From Terriglobales bacterium (GTDB lineage: Bacteria; Acidobacteriota; Terriglobia; Terriglobales; Acidobacteriaceae): a stretch of DNA of 64,000 bases. The notes beneath the pieces are model-generated. The model was not told where the DNA came from and did no database searches. It saw only the letters and a program-made list of their open reading frames with translations. The translations under genes were made by a program, and so were the position numbers. Of the stretch, positions 50,739-57,780 are shown piece by piece. The stretch spans positions 62,001 through 126,000 of the forward strand of contig JAOAPE010000001.1 of the NCBI GenBank assembly GCA_025462725.1, in the 5' to 3' direction. Position 1 is the first letter of the stretch; every line of letters starts with the position of its first letter.

Positions 50739-50904
50739 TGATTACTCCTACTAGAAATCTGAAAAGACTTTCCCACGACAACCAACCTGTTCAAGCTGGA
50801 AGTGAAAATGAAACAACTAACAACCGCGTGGGGGATGAGTCCGTAGTTCTTCTCGCCTTATATAGATGCGAAAGGCGGGATTTCGATTGAATCACTACAA
50901 AGAT

Positions 50905-50927
50905 TTTACCCCTTTTAGACGGGTAAA
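50905..50927 (-). promoter_or_regulatory. Inverted repeat upstream of ftsH
   Basis: TTTACCC (50905-50911) and GGGTAAA (50921-50927) form a perfect 7-bp inverted repeat with a nine-base spacer, about 170 bases upstream of the ftsH start. The geometry is operator-like (the same spacer length as CIRCE, but a different sequence). No firm -35/-10 pair could be placed. Confidence 0.4.
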
Positions 50928-50976: not shown

Positions 50977-50999
50977 AAAAACGGGCGAAATTCGCCCGT
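50977..50999 (-). terminator. Terminator of the tilS-hpt transcript
   Basis: ACGGGCGAA and TTCGCCCGT form a perfect 9-bp stem with a single-base loop core (50981-50999). Read on the minus strand it is followed by TTTT (50977-50980). It separates hpt from ftsH. Confidence 0.85.
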
Positions 51000-51043
51000 C
51001 GTCTGTAAGTAGTTGGAAACACAAGAGCCGCTTTCGGGGTGTG

Positions 51044-51583
51044 TTAGTCCCTCGCTAATACGCCGATGTAAGGCAGGTTACGCCCCAGTTGCGGGGCTCC
51101 AAGTCCGTATCCGACGACAAAGGATTCGTCGAGCAAAAAGCCGAAGTATTCGGGATGAAGCATGACGCGCCGCTCGGATTGTTTGTCCAAAAGGGTGCAG
51201 ATCTTGACCGAAGCGGCACCGCGTGTGGTGAAATTGCGCACCAAGAACTCGCTGGTCACGCCAGATTGGATCAATGCTTCAACAAGCAGCACGTCTTTAC
51301 CGGTGACATCAGTCTCAGGCGTGTAGAAGATCTCAGTAGTGTTGGTGCTGCCCTGGCGGGTTTCGCGGGTGTCAGCGGTGACGAAGTTACAGACGACCGG
51401 AATCTCAAGTTGGCGGACAAAATCCGACATGAACATGAATCCGTTTTCGAGAACACAGATGACGTGCAAGGTCTTGCCGGCATAGTCCGAGCTGACTTGC
51501 TTGGCTATTTCAGAGACGCGCTTTTGGATCTGCTCTGCCGTGAAAACTGTTTTCTTGATCTTTAGCTTGTGGCCGTTATTCAA
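51044..51583 (-). CDS. hpt: Hypoxanthine phosphoribosyltransferase homologue, altered PRPP loop
   Basis: A 179-residue type I phosphoribosyltransferase by fold and context: FTAEQIQKRVSEIAKQVSSD, LHVICVLENGFMFMSDFVRQ, then the PRPP-binding region. That region normally reads V-E-D-I-I-D-T/S-G-x-T; here it is LLVEALIQSGVTSEFL. The second acidic residue is Ala and the catalytic-base Asp is Gln, so the usual ribose/Mg contacts and the base are missing. The late VGYGLGAPQLGRNLPYIGVL matches the purine-binding end of HPRT. It may be inactive, use another mechanism, or act as a regulator. Gene order tilS-hpt-ftsH supports the HPRT family assignment. Confidence 0.8.
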   Translation of the reverse strand: MNNGHKLKIKKTVFTAEQIQKRVSEIAKQVSSDYAGKTLHVICVLENGFMFMSDFVRQLEIPVVCNFVTADTRETRQGSTNTTEIFYTPETDVTGKDVLLVEALIQSGVTSEFLVRNFTTRGAASVKICTLLDKQSERRVMLHPEYFGFLLDESFVVGYGLGAPQLGRNLPYIGVLARD

Positions 51584-51615: not shown

Positions 51616-53103
51616 TCAGCTTTGTGCGTGGGGCGATGTTTCAATGATCAGTTGCTGTAGTTTGCCGTTTTCTTCGAGCCAAAGCTTGTTCGACCGCGTC
51701 GCGTAAACCCAAATCAGTTTGTTCCCGAGCGCGAGCACGGGCCAATTCTGGCGGTCGCCCGAGGGAATTTGTAGGTCTTCCAGCAACTCCTTCACTTTCT
51801 TTTCAGAGCCGCTTTGCGCTTGCTTGAATCGATCGCCTGCACGCCAATTTCGCAGCGTGAGGCTATCCGCCGCGCCGAGTGGTTCCATTTTGCCATCTTC
51901 TCCAGAGAAAAGAATGGGCGTTCTCTGCGGGGAATGAGCTGAAGTTTTCTCGGCTAGCGTCGGGTGATTATACCTCCCAAGTTGCTGATTAGCAGGTAGC
52001 AAATGCGCATACACAACTAGGTTCCCGCCAGGGACCGCTGTCTCTCCGGGAACTGGAAACGGCAGTTCGAAGGCTTGACCTTGTGCTGATTTCTTTGCCC
52101 GCTCAAAACGAAGTTCACGAAACGAGCGCTCGACGCGCCACCCGCCGGGAAGTTCGCATTTCTTTCCACCAGCGACGAGGGCGAGAATGTCAGCCACATG
52201 GTGGATGTCTAGTGCAATGCCGAGGGATTCAGCCGCCGCGCGAATGAGTCGACGCTGCAGGGCGAGCGGTTGTTTTAGCAGAGCCTCAATGCTGAGCCCA
52301 GAGGCGTCAACCTTCCCTGCTGAGCTTCGTCCGCCGCCGCGAACGGGCTTACCGGGCAGAAGAACGAAAGGCAGGAGCCGCGCTGTTTCGGCAGTCCAGA
52401 AGTGTTCCTCGTCACGCGTCACCTCCGCGGTGCGGGCGAGTGTTTCCACGATCGCGGGATTGTAGTCTCGGGCAAGAAGCGGGAGCAGTTCGTGACGAAT
52501 CTTATTGCGAGCGTGAACCACGTCAGAGTTGGTGGAGTCGTTGCACCAAGGTTGATTGCGGGATTTCAAAAACGCTTCAACTTCGGTACGACACCCTTCG
52601 AGAAGCGGACGGATGATGTTCTCATCCAGTTCAGGATGGATGCCGCCCAAACCGCGCGTTCCCGCACCGCGCAGCAGGCGGAGCAGAACGGTTTCAGCTT
52701 GATCGTCCATTGTGTGCGCGGTTGCAATCTTGTCGAGCGTGTTGTCAGCGATCATCTTGCGGAAGAATGCATATCGCAGATCGCGAGCCGCGGTTTCGAG
52801 GCTGATCTTTTCTGCCGCTGCGTGGGCGGGAGCATCGCCGCATGAGTGATGGAACGGCAATTCGAGTTTATTCGCCAGCTCGGCAACGAAGCTCTCATCT
52901 GCATCGGCTTCTGTGCCGCGAATCTTGTGATTCAAGTGAACGGCGGAAATAATAATCCCCAGTTCTGATCGCAATTCCGCAAGTGCCAAAAGCAAGGAGA
53001 CCGAGTCAGCGCCGCCAGAAACGGCCACACCGAGGCGGTCGCCCGGCTTGAGCAGGGCGTGCTTGCGGATGTACTTGAGGACGGCTTCCTTCACCTCCGT
53101 CAT
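51616..53103 (-). CDS. tilS: tRNA(Ile)-lysidine synthase
   Basis: Converts C34 of the minor tRNA-Ile(CAU) to lysidine using ATP, so that it reads AUA. The 495-residue protein has the N-type ATP pyrophosphatase loop LGVAVSGGADSVSLLLAL near residues 25-42, AVHLNHKIRGTEADADESFV, IATAHTMDDQAETVLLRLLR and GIHPELDENIIRPLLEGCR. The C-terminal domains typical of long TilS follow (residues 250-490). It is followed 32 bases later by hpt on the same strand and is divergent from ispD. Confidence 0.95.
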   Translation of the reverse strand: MTEVKEAVLKYIRKHALLKPGDRLGVAVSGGADSVSLLLALAELRSELGIIISAVHLNHKIRGTEADADESFVAELANKLELPFHHSCGDAPAHAAAEKISLETAARDLRYAFFRKMIADNTLDKIATAHTMDDQAETVLLRLLRGAGTRGLGGIHPELDENIIRPLLEGCRTEVEAFLKSRNQPWCNDSTNSDVVHARNKIRHELLPLLARDYNPAIVETLARTAEVTRDEEHFWTAETARLLPFVLLPGKPVRGGGRSSAGKVDASGLSIEALLKQPLALQRRLIRAAAESLGIALDIHHVADILALVAGGKKCELPGGWRVERSFRELRFERAKKSAQGQAFELPFPVPGETAVPGGNLVVYAHLLPANQQLGRYNHPTLAEKTSAHSPQRTPILFSGEDGKMEPLGAADSLTLRNWRAGDRFKQAQSGSEKKVKELLEDLQIPSGDRQNWPVLALGNKLIWVYATRSNKLWLEENGKLQQLIIETSPHAQS

Positions 53104-54393: not shown

Positions 54394-57300
54394 CTAGGGG
54401 CGGATTGCGCGCTCGCCTTTTAGCTGCTTGATGAGGATGCGGACGATCATGCCGTCAAATTGTGTGCCGCTGGAACGTTCGAGATCGAGCATCGCGTCCA
54501 CCGGGCTCTTGCCGTCGGCGTAGGCGCGGTCTGTAGTCATGTTCACGTACGCTTCTGCGACTGCGATGATGCGTGCTCCCAAAGGAATCTGTTCTCCCTT
54601 GAGGCCGTCGGGATATCCGCCGCCATCGAAGCGCTCCTGATGATGTAGAACAAAACTCTGCGCTTGCTGAGTTCCTGGGACTGGGGCAACAATCTGCGCG
54701 CCCACCGCGCTGTGCGACTTCACTAATTGATACTCATCGAAACTCAATGCTGAAGGCTTATTCAACAGGCGCTCGGGCAAGATGATCTTGCCGACATCAT
54801 GCACGTAAGCGGCGAATGTCAGTTCGTGCGCATCGGCTTCGGGCAAGTCGAGTTCGTCAGCGATGGCGCGAACGTAGCTGGCAACGGTGTCCCCGTGTCC
54901 GGTTGCGTGAAGCTCTTTGCCCTCGAGTGCGCGAACGATGGAGCGGACCGCGTCCATCAGGACGAGTTGCTTATCTTTCTCGGGAACAGCTTCGGCGATG
55001 GCGTCCAATGCGGTCACGAGCTCTGCTGCTGTGGGGACGTAATCGCGGCGCAGCAAGCCATCAAGGTGCGTGTTGATGAGCTGACGGTGCTGTCCAATGG
55101 CCTCGCCTTCGAGCGACGGCTCCATGCTGAAAACTTTATTTCCGCCGGCGTGCTTCGATTTGTACATCCCTGCATCGGCCACGCGGATGATCTCTTCGAC
55201 TGTTGAACCGTGAAGCGGAAATTCTGCGACTCCGAAGCTGCCAGTGACGTGTCGTTCGTTGAGCATGGGATCGGTGGCGATCCAAAGGCGTAAGCGTTCG
55301 GAAAGAATGCTGGCTTGCTCAACGCCGGTTTCCGGCATGAGGACGACGAATTCGTCTCCGCCGTAACGGGCAACAACGTTGGATTGACGGACCTTTTGAT
55401 CGAGCAGCCGGCCGATGCGCGCAAGCACGAGATCACCTTCGAGGTGTCCCATGCTGTCATTCACTTCTTTGAATTTATCCAAATCGATCAGCACAACAGA
55501 GAACGGGCGACCGGAACGCATGGCGCGCTTGGATTCAGAAAGCAATGCTTCATTGAAGAAGCGGCGCGTCTTGATTCCCGTAAGCGGGTCGGTGATGGAT
55601 TGCTGCTCCATCTTCTGGAAGACGAAAACGTTGTGCAACGCTGTAGCGAGAAGGTCGGCGAGCGTTTGCAGGATTAAAACTTCTTCTTGCGGGAAAGCGC
55701 TTTCGCGGCGGCTCTCGACGTTGAGAAGTCCGAGCAAGCTTTCGCCGTAGGAGATGGGAAGGCAAAGTACCGAGCGCGAACCAGGAATAATGCCAAGCAA
55801 GTGTTCGGAGTGTCCCTGCTCTAAAGCCATCTCATTCGATCGGGCGACGCGACCCATGATGCCGACTCCGAGCGGGATGCGCTTGCCGATGGCCATGTCA
55901 ACGCTGCCGGCTTCGGCCTTTATCTCAATGTCCTTAGTGTTGTAGTCAACGATGCCAACGCCGATGTGGTCAAAATTAAAATTCTGCTGGATCTGGTCGA
56001 CGATCTCTTCCAGCATCTTTTCCGCATTCTGGCTGGAGATAGCGACTTTGGAGACGTTATTTAGAAATGCGAGATAGCGGGCGCGCTTTTGTTCCTGTGC
56101 GAAAAGGCGCGCGTTTTCAGTGGCAATTGCGACTTGTCGCGCTGCGGTTTGCAATATCTCCATATCACGCGGGCTGTAAACATTTTCACGCTCATAGTGG
56201 ATGACCGCCATGACTCCGATCGCCTTGCCGCCGCGCACGACAGGAACGCCGCAGAAAGACTTCGCTGGACGGCCTAGGACCATCGCCCCGAGTTGCTCAC
56301 GTACATGCTCCAGGTCTTTTTCGATCAAGAGTGGTTGACCGGTGCGGATGATGTGCTCGGTAAACCCGTATGTCACAGCGCGCTCACGCTTGGGAATCAG
56401 TGCCCCTTCTTCCATCTCAAGCTCGAACGAGATTTTTTCGCCTTCTTGAAAAGCGACGTAGAAAGTTCGCGTGTCGAAAAGCTGACCAAGTTCTTTGTGG
56501 ATGGCAGTGAGTACTTCGTCCTGGTCGAGCCGCGAACTTACAACTTGACCGATCTCTGTAAGCAGTTCGAATTCTTTAGTGCGGCGTTGAGCTTCATGGA
56601 GCAGCGCATATTTTTCCAGCGTAGTAGCGAGCTGCACGGCAAGACTCTTGACCAGCGCGGCTTCCGAATCGCCGATCGCCGACGATCGCTTATGCGGAAG
56701 TAGCAGAAGCCCCAAGACCCGGTCGCGAGTGCGGATACTCATCACCGTGAGGGAACCTATTGCTTGCGCTTTCAGTATTTCGGCAAAGCGCACCAGGCGG
56801 GAATCAGCCTGGGAACGGAGGACAGAGACTGGCAGGTTCTGAATGTCAGAGGCATCATCCGGATTCTTGATACGAAGCAGCGAGTCTATGGATTGGCCCA
56901 CTTCGGCCTCAACGGTGTTTATGAAGTTTTCTGGAAGTCCCCATTGCGCCGATGGAAGGACATTGCGAAACGGTTCCAAGGCATAGAACGCCATCCGATC
57001 AGACCTGGTGAGATTCCCCAAGCGCTCAAGCACCTTGTTCATGCTGGGCTGCAACTCAGCGGGAGAGAGCACGCGACTGAAATCCACTTCCAGAGTGGAG
57101 AAGGCCAACAGGTTCTCTTGCACCGTGCGGCGCTCATTCTCGTAGAGCACCATCACCATGGCAATGGCGATGAGCATTTGCGGCACCGGGCCCAGAACGT
57201 GTCCGTAGGTTTGCAGGATATTGCCGGCAAAAATCGTGTGCATCTGTCGCGAAAGCAACAGCAACGCCCAAAAGACCAGCGAGGCTGACAACAACTTGAA

Positions 57301-57780
57301 TGCGGCAGAGTGCAACCGCTTTCCTATTCGAGCAAATCTGAACGCGCTATAAACGAGCAGCGCGGAGAATCCAAATGCCGGGTCGGCGGGAATTTGCCAG
57401 TTTGCAGAACCAATAACAACGGCTTGTCCTCTGGTTGCGAACTGCACGCTCCAAGTGGCCCACGCTACCAAGATCCCAGCGAACACCAAATATTGTTTGC
57501 GCCAGCGAAAGGTGTCTTCAATGAGCGAAGTAGAAACGAATACGCACAGGATGGTGGCAGCGAAGCAATATCTTCCTGCAAGAAGCAGTGCACGATTCTG
57601 AATCGCAAGAAAGTAGATGGAAAGAAAAAGGTAAGAGAGCGAGTATGCAGCCCATCCGACCTGCCAGGCGCGGAAGTACTCGCGGCGTGTCTGCTTGTAG
57701 AGGAACGAGAACACTCCGAGCAGCAGCAGGGCAATCATGCCCGGCACGACAATAATCATGATGTTGTTTTCAGTCGTCAT
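54394..57780 (-). CDS. Membrane sensor with GAF x3, GGDEF and HD-GYP domains
   Basis: A 1128-residue c-di-GMP signalling protein. Residues 1-230 hold about seven hydrophobic segments (7TM-like sensor). Three GAF-type domains follow, roughly 240-385, 400-560 and 575-735, then a GGDEF domain with an intact active-site RYGGDEFVVL near residue 810, and an HD-GYP domain with YVHDVGKIILPERLL and HHQERFDGGGYPDGLKG near 995-1060. The inhibitory I-site RxxD just before GGDEF reads RQSN, so feedback binding may be weakened. Intact synthase and phosphodiesterase motifs in one chain suggest a bifunctional switch tuned by its sensors. It shares a divergent region with gltX. Confidence 0.9.
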   Translation of the reverse strand: MTTENNIMIIVVPGMIALLLLGVFSFLYKQTRREYFRAWQVGWAAYSLSYLFLSIYFLAIQNRALLLAGRYCFAATILCVFVSTSLIEDTFRWRKQYLVFAGILVAWATWSVQFATRGQAVVIGSANWQIPADPAFGFSALLVYSAFRFARIGKRLHSAAFKLLSASLVFWALLLLSRQMHTIFAGNILQTYGHVLGPVPQMLIAIAMVMVLYENERRTVQENLLAFSTLEVDFSRVLSPAELQPSMNKVLERLGNLTRSDRMAFYALEPFRNVLPSAQWGLPENFINTVEAEVGQSIDSLLRIKNPDDASDIQNLPVSVLRSQADSRLVRFAEILKAQAIGSLTVMSIRTRDRVLGLLLLPHKRSSAIGDSEAALVKSLAVQLATTLEKYALLHEAQRRTKEFELLTEIGQVVSSRLDQDEVLTAIHKELGQLFDTRTFYVAFQEGEKISFELEMEEGALIPKRERAVTYGFTEHIIRTGQPLLIEKDLEHVREQLGAMVLGRPAKSFCGVPVVRGGKAIGVMAVIHYERENVYSPRDMEILQTAARQVAIATENARLFAQEQKRARYLAFLNNVSKVAISSQNAEKMLEEIVDQIQQNFNFDHIGVGIVDYNTKDIEIKAEAGSVDMAIGKRIPLGVGIMGRVARSNEMALEQGHSEHLLGIIPGSRSVLCLPISYGESLLGLLNVESRRESAFPQEEVLILQTLADLLATALHNVFVFQKMEQQSITDPLTGIKTRRFFNEALLSESKRAMRSGRPFSVVLIDLDKFKEVNDSMGHLEGDLVLARIGRLLDQKVRQSNVVARYGGDEFVVLMPETGVEQASILSERLRLWIATDPMLNERHVTGSFGVAEFPLHGSTVEEIIRVADAGMYKSKHAGGNKVFSMEPSLEGEAIGQHRQLINTHLDGLLRRDYVPTAAELVTALDAIAEAVPEKDKQLVLMDAVRSIVRALEGKELHATGHGDTVASYVRAIADELDLPEADAHELTFAAYVHDVGKIILPERLLNKPSALSFDEYQLVKSHSAVGAQIVAPVPGTQQAQSFVLHHQERFDGGGYPDGLKGEQIPLGARIIAVAEAYVNMTTDRAYADGKSPVDAMLDLERSSGTQFDGMIVRILIKQLKGERAIRP

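Follow-up and report, generated by a model that had tools for sequence, protein, structure and literature searches.

Between tilS and ftsH in the window (i.e., the whole 64,000-nucleotide stretch of the Terriglobales contig JAOAPE010000001.1 that was analyzed) lies a gene for an HPRT-like protein that, judging from the residues replaced in its active site, has very probably lost its enzymatic activity. The protein is an HPRT by fold, according to its predicted structure, and its altered motifs mark it as a new, probably non-catalytic variant of the HPRT family. The reading that we prefer, whose chances of being right or wrong we put about level, is that this is a catalytically retired HPRT paralogue kept between its two neighbors for a non-enzymatic job. 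The features that bear on this reading are collected in Table 1.

Table 1. Features of the window discussed in the text, ordered by position (residue numbers are those of the window protein, apart from D159).
Feature	Position	Strand	Basis
ftsH, AAA+ membrane protease, 631 aa	48843-50738	-	domain profiles
Block CCGTCTAAAAGGGGTAAAATCT, 181 bases before the ftsH frame; end resembles a -10 box by eye	50901-50922	-	genus conservation
Terminator-like hairpin, nine pairs then a T-run, directly after the HPRT-like gene	50980-51000	-	pattern match only
HPRT-like protein, 179 aa, TTG start, putatively non-catalytic	51044-51583	-	open reading frame, domain and family profile matches, model
Asp of VGYGLD (D159) replaced by Gly, residue 162 (YGLG)	51098-51100	-	alignment
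Altered PRPP loop V-E-A-L-I-Q-S-G-V-T, residues 101-110	51254-51283	-	ten codons; PDB alignments
Loop II, canonical S-Y replaced by T-R, residues 72-73	51365-51370	-	alignment
Loop I, canonical L-K-G replaced by L-E-N, residues 45-47	51443-51451	-	alignment
tilS, tRNA-Ile lysidine synthetase, 495 aa; ATP_bind_3, TilS, TilS_C	51616-53103	-	domain profiles
1128-aa protein, GAF repeats, GGDEF and HD; candidate cyclic-di-GMP enzyme beside ispD/ispF	54394-57780	-	domain profiles

The family assignment draws on both profiles and structure. The protein matches the Pribosyltran profile (PF00156) at 78.5 bits against a cut-off of 26.3, which assigns it a type I PRTase domain, and its score against the TIGR01203 equivalog, 147.6 bits, falls narrowly below the cut-off of 150. 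Solved HPRTs in the PDB were matched by phmmer with a best E-value of 8.6e-36 and with no gaps in the alignments shown; and the AF2 model, built from a 32-row alignment, has a pLDDT of 89.0, a pTM of 0.84, and as its best solved match the Hpt-2 of B. anthracis (3o7m; Z 25.5, rmsd 1.4 over 162 residues). Identity as PyrR was not supported: a second set of TIGR01203 matches, at about 32-54 bits, belongs to another gene, which looks PyrR-like as judged by eye from L004. In two genus relatives (L039 and L040), the open frames start with Val where the window protein has its TTG start.

To place the replaced residues we use the numbering of B. anthracis Hpt-1, whose D100/D103 numbering and ligand contacts are given in excerpts of PMC6783271; the number in the window protein is the Hpt-1 number plus three. 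A reading made earlier from the sequence alone had proposed that the PRPP loop is V-E-A-L-I-Q-S-G-V-T, with Ala for the ribose Asp and Gln for the base Asp, and both proposals were borne out: the loop occupies residues 101-110 of the frame at 51044-51583, and in the gap-free PDB alignments A103 and Q106 stand opposite D100 and D103, the two Asp of the EDIIDSG motif. The position then given, 51260-51310, overlaps the loop codons but clips the final Val-Thr, since the ten codons span 51254-51283; and the statement that the loop lacks its acidic residues holds for the two Asp but not for the leading Glu (E99, here E102), which is retained together with the S-G-x-T phosphate loop. The loss at the PRPP loop is thus real, but the damage is wider, in that loop I, loop II and the Asp of VGYGLD are also changed; the motif E/D-D-x-x-D-S/T-G-x-T with both of its Asp, and the Asp of YGLD, are all absent. 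By comparison, the purine Lys K131 (K134 of the window protein), F152, L158 and the last Arg, R165, are all retained.

We take D103 to be the general base of HPRT, D159 (D193 of the human enzyme) to hold a Mg ion, and the Ser-Tyr of loop II to have a catalytic role. On these assignments, the changes would affect ribose, metal and pyrophosphate binding and base catalysis together, and would leave the nucleotide pocket partly intact. Since all three Asp (of the ribose, general-base and Mg sites), canonical loop I and the Ser-Tyr of loop II are gone, we would expect the protein, although it keeps the fold and the 5'-phosphate loop, to make no IMP or GMP at a useful rate.

The replacements are not peculiar to this sequence. 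We aligned the window protein with 20 other rows from Terriglobia at 50-90% identity, whose sources include Acidobacteriaceae, Acidobacteriales, Acidobacteria, Terriglobia, Terriglobales and Candidatus Angelobacter, and in which two pairs of identical proteins (L039/L048 and L041/L049) are probably the same genomes drawn from two collections. In all 21 rows, D100 is replaced by A or G, D103 by Q, H or E, and D159 by G (once by S), and the Lys of loop I is replaced by E, such that the loop reads E-N or E-D; the A-x-x-Q and the Gly of YGLG are common to the genus members, at 74-90% identity. The sequence-only reading had allowed that the change might be confined to one sequence, but the same three Asp are gone from each of the 20 other rows, and chance or sequencing error as the source of the odd motif can thereby be dismissed.

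That earlier reading left two possibilities, i.e., that the chemistry differs or that the protein is non-catalytic and kept by selection, and we find the former to be less likely. The protein might still be an active transferase or hydrolase that works on a different substrate, with Gln, His or Glu standing in for Asp as the base; this could account for the strong selection on the gene and for residues such as E46 of loop I, C65 and Q135, which are invariant in the Terriglobia clade and unlike the letters of canonical HPRTs. The general-base position, however, varies among Q, H and E within a single clade, the ribose Asp has become A or G, the Asp of YGLD is lost, and no new conserved acid pair that might replace the lost Asp was seen in the clade alignment, such that we regard an altered chemistry as very unlikely.

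Another explanation is that the protein is a nucleotide sensor, which would no longer catalyze but would retain affinity for a purine nucleotide or (p)ppGpp through its S-G-x-T phosphate loop, the Lys and Phe of its base pocket and its last Arg, the ligand then switching the binding of a partner. According to excerpts of PMC6783271, ppGpp contacts E99, D100, the backbone of residues 103-107, K131, F152, L158, R165 and loop I of B. anthracis Hpt-1; and the Terriglobia clade keeps the equivalents of E99 (in 19 of 21 rows), G105, T107, K131 (K or R), F152 (F or Y), L158 and R165. Nevertheless, the window protein departs from canonical HPRTs at D100 and loop I, both part of the ppGpp site, and at the Asp of YGLD; and copies in four families (f16, f25, f34 and f40) also lack the phosphate-loop Thr and the Arg, which argues that no ligand is common to all degenerate copies. 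A sensor role is, in our judgment, unlikely.

A further possibility is that the gene is a duplicate in decay that will eventually disappear. We estimated dN/dS by the method of Nei and Gojobori in the genome pair with low dS (0.33-0.40), G297/G298 (L040 vs. L048, identical to L039; canonical hpt copies L046 and L047), and obtained 0.050 for the HPRT-like gene, 0.141 for tilS, 0.020 for ftsH and 0.024 for canonical hpt. In the pair G299/G300 (L049 vs. L042; L043 and L044), where dS is higher, the values were 0.010 (dS 1.62), 0.133, 0.046 and 0.082, respectively; other pairs were near or at saturation in dS. The HPRT-like protein is constrained about as firmly as working enzymes, and a dN/dS of about 0.05 indicates that its gene is not decaying. 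Because TilS evolves faster than the HPRT-like protein within the genus, these values do not suggest a tightly co-evolving pair. The gene is absent from 11 of 15 surveyed genomes of family f1, as decay might produce; but the frame is open across the whole domain in all 21 clade rows, and linked copies that have lost at least two acids are retained in 12 family codes. With purifying selection contradicting it, we give the decay hypothesis almost no credence.

The window's own genome (91 contigs, 100% complete) holds a second, canonical hpt: The sequence-only reading had suggested looking for such a gene, and one (L001) is present on another contig, C56, with the motifs SSYGS, VEDILDTGFT and VGYGMD, a score of 211.4 bits against TIGR01203, and 34% identity to the window protein. 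The host is a soil bacterium. Together with the 20 orthologue rows that share the Asp losses and a dN/dS of about 0.05, this canonical copy supports the view that the window protein is non-catalytic and kept by selection, and purine salvage would then be left to the hpt elsewhere in the genome.

That tilS, hpt and ftsH are neighbors, as had been read from the window itself, also applies to the clade at large. The order tilS-hpt-ftsH, on one strand, occurs in the window and at all 20 other clade loci (15 of 15 checked for their flanks, and then five more: L133, L134, L138, L246 and L247). The gene is not universal in family f1, where a match above 190 bits was found in 6 of the 31 listed genomes, and the survey of tilS loci found no linked HPRT in 11 of 15 f1 genomes, implying that the protein is dispensable in this family. 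The TilS_C domain is present in all four surveyed f1 genomes with the pseudo-HPRT and in 2 of the 11 without it, and TilS_C and the linked HPRT may have been lost together in members of f1. At nine f1 loci with no linked HPRT (L130-L132, L135-L137 and L139-L141), TilS mostly has no match to TilS_C, and the frames span 358-490 aa.

To view the gene across the Acidobacteriota, we surveyed 149 sampled genomes, 142 of which have tilS (at E 1e-20). Among 116 tilS loci besides that of the window, 95 have ftsH within 3.5 kb downstream, and 41 of these 95 have an HPRT-like gene there as well; of the rest, four have a linked HPRT with no ftsH in view, and 17 have neither. The phylum alignment comprised 65 linked rows (50 from surveyed genomes, including the window's own, and 15 others), 31 unlinked rows and 13 outgroup rows. 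At least one of E99, D100, D103 and D159 is lost in 41 of the 65 linked rows, and in none of the 31 unlinked and none of the 13 outgroup rows; none of these 31 unlinked rows has tilS or ftsH in flanks of up to 1.5 kb. With four copies added later (L279-L282, from G012, G019, G110 and G259), whose residues were read by eye from translations, the counts become 42 of 67 linked vs. 1 of 33 unlinked. Linked copies that lack two or more of the four acids occur in 12 family codes, and the replacements at E99-D100-D103 differ among families, for example G-T/S-D in f7, E-A-A in f10, K-D-S in f25 and f40, V-G-D in f35, Y-G-G in f43 and K-D-H in f45.

The rule that unlinked copies are always canonical, which held for the first 31 of 31, was broken by one of the later additions. 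This copy (L281 in G110, at 1810-2484) has no tilS or ftsH in view, a Gly for the general-base Asp and an insert near its N-terminus, so that degeneration also occurs away from the locus; the other unlinked addition (L282) is canonical, with no acid lost. As to the two linked additions, L279 adjoins a second tilS and keeps D-D-D, in a genome that is 75% complete and 3% contaminated, and L280, with Asn in place of E99, belongs to a second hpt-ftsH pair at the start of a contig. Outside the phylum, we compared 69 relatives, assigned to other groups by their titles (that of L080 says only 'bacterium'); all four acids are kept in 68 of them, and 34 of the 69 have tilS and ftsH in view. The exception is a Nitrospirae HPRT (L075, 246-803), with Asn at the general-base Asp.

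The degeneration of linked copies goes with the presence of another HPRT. We searched 50 genomes with TIGR01203 and counted matches above 80 bits: a second HPRT was present in 21 and absent in 5 of the genomes with a degenerate linked copy, and present in 4 and absent in 20 of those with an intact one (Fisher p 1.2e-5, which ignores kinship). Counted by family, the same association holds (28 families; 11/3/3/11, p 0.007). The second copy is canonical and, as far as its flanks show, unlinked in all 21 of the degenerate cases and in one of the four intact ones (G066); a recount on this basis, made post hoc, gives 21/5 vs. 1/23 (p 1.9e-8), and we rest on the first count. Of the five degenerate copies with no second HPRT found, those of G022, G035 and G010 lost one acid, that of G005 two, and that of G016 three. 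In the last two (L146 and L156), the degenerate gene is linked to tilS and the genomes are nearly complete: Either salvage has been lost, or the second copy lies in a gap, or these degenerate proteins are still active.

These counts might also arise if the degenerate protein were a pseudoenzyme subunit that joins the cell's canonical HPRT in mixed oligomers and thereby regulates it. A second HPRT does accompany 21 of the 26 degenerate copies, always unlinked and canonical, and a less active phosphoribosyltransferase paralogue is known from the trypanosome APRT isoform described in excerpts of PMC8836349; for PRTFDC1, excerpts of PMC3144895 mention unvalidated evidence of an interaction with HPRT. 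The association with copy number would, however, look no different if the second copy did nothing more than relieve the linked one of catalysis, and 5 of the 26 degenerate copies have no second HPRT that we found (three of them having lost a single acid). Moreover, the window protein is just 34% identical to its own canonical HPRT, and mixed oligomers leave the place of the gene between tilS and ftsH unexplained; we hold this explanation to be a genuine alternative, but quite unlikely.

A second association involves TilS itself. At 46 linked loci, TilS_C (PF11734) accompanies 20 of the 22 degenerate HPRTs and 11 of the 24 intact ones (p 0.0015, again with kinship ignored), and its link to the presence of any linked HPRT across all 117 loci is weak (31/36/15/35; p 0.087). 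The former association fits a role linked to TilS but may reflect shared descent.

How often the active site was lost bears on all of these counts, and independent-pair tests offered just three to five usable pairs (five on starred branches in the copy-number test). Parsimony places five changes on the HPRT tree, three on the FtsH tree and three on the FtsH+TilS tree, which together with the differing replacements suggests many independent losses; we claim no more than one, since a single clade of the strongly degenerate rows was not rejected by the AU test (p 0.605 for HPRT with 38 rows, 0.221 for FtsH with 22 rows, and 0.598 for FtsH+TilS). For HPRT and for FtsH+TilS, the constrained tree in fact outscored the free 'quick' tree. 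The HPRT tree groups 63 of the 65 linked rows together (SH-aLRT 90), the exceptions being L150 and L152. Because one clade of degenerate rows was not rejected, the pattern may represent one ancient change that has been kept since.

In the gap before ftsH, the hairpin that follows the HPRT-like gene points to a transcript of its own for ftsH; there are six such terminator-like sites in the scanned stretch vs. 3.8 expected in shuffles. The first 16 bases of CCGTCTAAAAGGGGTAAAATCT have zero or one mismatch at all six other genus loci (from four genomes), and four to eight mismatches at 24 other loci of the family, i.e., the block was not found there. A 7-bp repeat, TTTACCC/GGGTAAA, overlaps CCGTCTAAAAGGGGTAAAATCT and is absent from L048. 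A sigma-70 scan of the gap detected no promoter-like site. As a general promoter element, CCGTCTAAAAGGGGTAAAATCT was rejected: the 17-base pattern GAACNNNNNNCGTCTAA, derived from it, occurs once in the genome, and a control pattern seven times. It is possible that CCGTCTAAAAGGGGTAAAATCT is a promoter or operator specific to ftsH, and a separate ftsH promoter appears likely from the layout of this region.

We can then state the preferred explanation, that of a retired paralogue with a non-enzymatic job, more fully. Retention between tilS and ftsH would be due to a job at this locus, most plausibly one in which the protein partners TilS and/or helps to control an ftsH with a promoter of its own. 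The second job, of the kind held by the HprT of B. subtilis, would have outlived the first, such that in genomes with another HPRT the linked copy gave up its chemistry and kept its fold, its place and the selection on it. If activity has indeed been lost, the position of the gene makes a TilS/ftsH role nearly, perhaps fully, an even proposition. Gene order may nonetheless be a matter of mere inheritance, and the relatives outside the phylum, half or so of which (34 of 69) share these neighbors and 68 of which are intact, count against such a role. The most specific version, in which a tilS-linked HPRT was relieved by a second canonical copy and became, in part of the Acidobacteriota, a dedicated non-enzymatic TilS partner and/or ftsH regulator, we put forward tentatively, as somewhat likelier to be wrong than right.

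HPRT is a textbook enzyme of purine salvage, and for its link with tilS and ftsH, which many bacteria share, the one explanation that we found is a single report from B. subtilis. A conserved pseudo-HPRT at this locus accompanied by a normal HPRT elsewhere would, if true, mean that what counts at the locus is the protein itself rather than its catalysis; nature would have separated two functions that are mixed in the HprT of Bacillus, and the pseudoenzyme family could be used to test the moonlighting claim. There is also a consequence for annotation, in that metabolic models may list genes of this kind among the enzymes of purine salvage.

We found no earlier description of a non-catalytic HPRT at the tilS-ftsH locus in the open-access literature (papers behind subscription lay mostly outside the search), and the closest systems each share only part of its properties. 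Like other bacterial HPRTs, the window protein has the phosphate loop, the purine Lys and Phe, and the last Arg, and it resembles Hpt-1 (6d9q and 6d9r) and Hpt-2 (3o7m) of B. anthracis in fold (Z 23.5 to 25.5); unlike them, it has loop I, the Ser-Tyr of loop II, the Asp pair of EDIID and the Asp of YGLD replaced. Compared with the (p)ppGpp-binding HPRT in excerpts of PMC6783271, it keeps E99, K131, F152 and R165, but with D100 and loop I changed the set of contacts is incomplete.

Engineered enzymes offer a partial parallel. In T. cruzi HPRT, mutants of 'an invariant aspartic acid' carry Gln (1i0i), Ala (1i13), Glu (1i14) or Asn (1i0l); this residue, if it is the base Asp, presumably corresponds to position 106 of the window protein. 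Each mutant has one engineered residue, whereas five sites are changed together in the window protein. The human PRTFDC1 (2jbh) is likewise an HPRT paralogue beside an active copy, and its base Asp is, we believe, lost too. It is, however, a vertebrate protein that scores only 54.8 bits, and we know of no link between it and tilS or ftsH. Excerpts of PMC3144895 describe its biologically relevant activity as not known.

The nearest functional parallel is in B. subtilis, and shares with the window the same three neighbors; the hairpin and CCGTCTAAAAGGGGTAAAATCT hint that ftsH may have a separate promoter here. The sequence-only reading had named this system, and it is real: in excerpts of the review PMC8152036, which cites Lin et al. 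2014, the TilS-HprT complex binds upstream of ftsH and activates it, the gene order is tilS-hpt-ftsH as in the window, TilS and HprT have no known DNA-binding motif, and the two sites upstream of ftsH share no consensus. In B. subtilis, HprT holds its second job in addition to a working enzymatic activity, whereas the window protein, to judge by its residues, seems to have shed the enzyme function.
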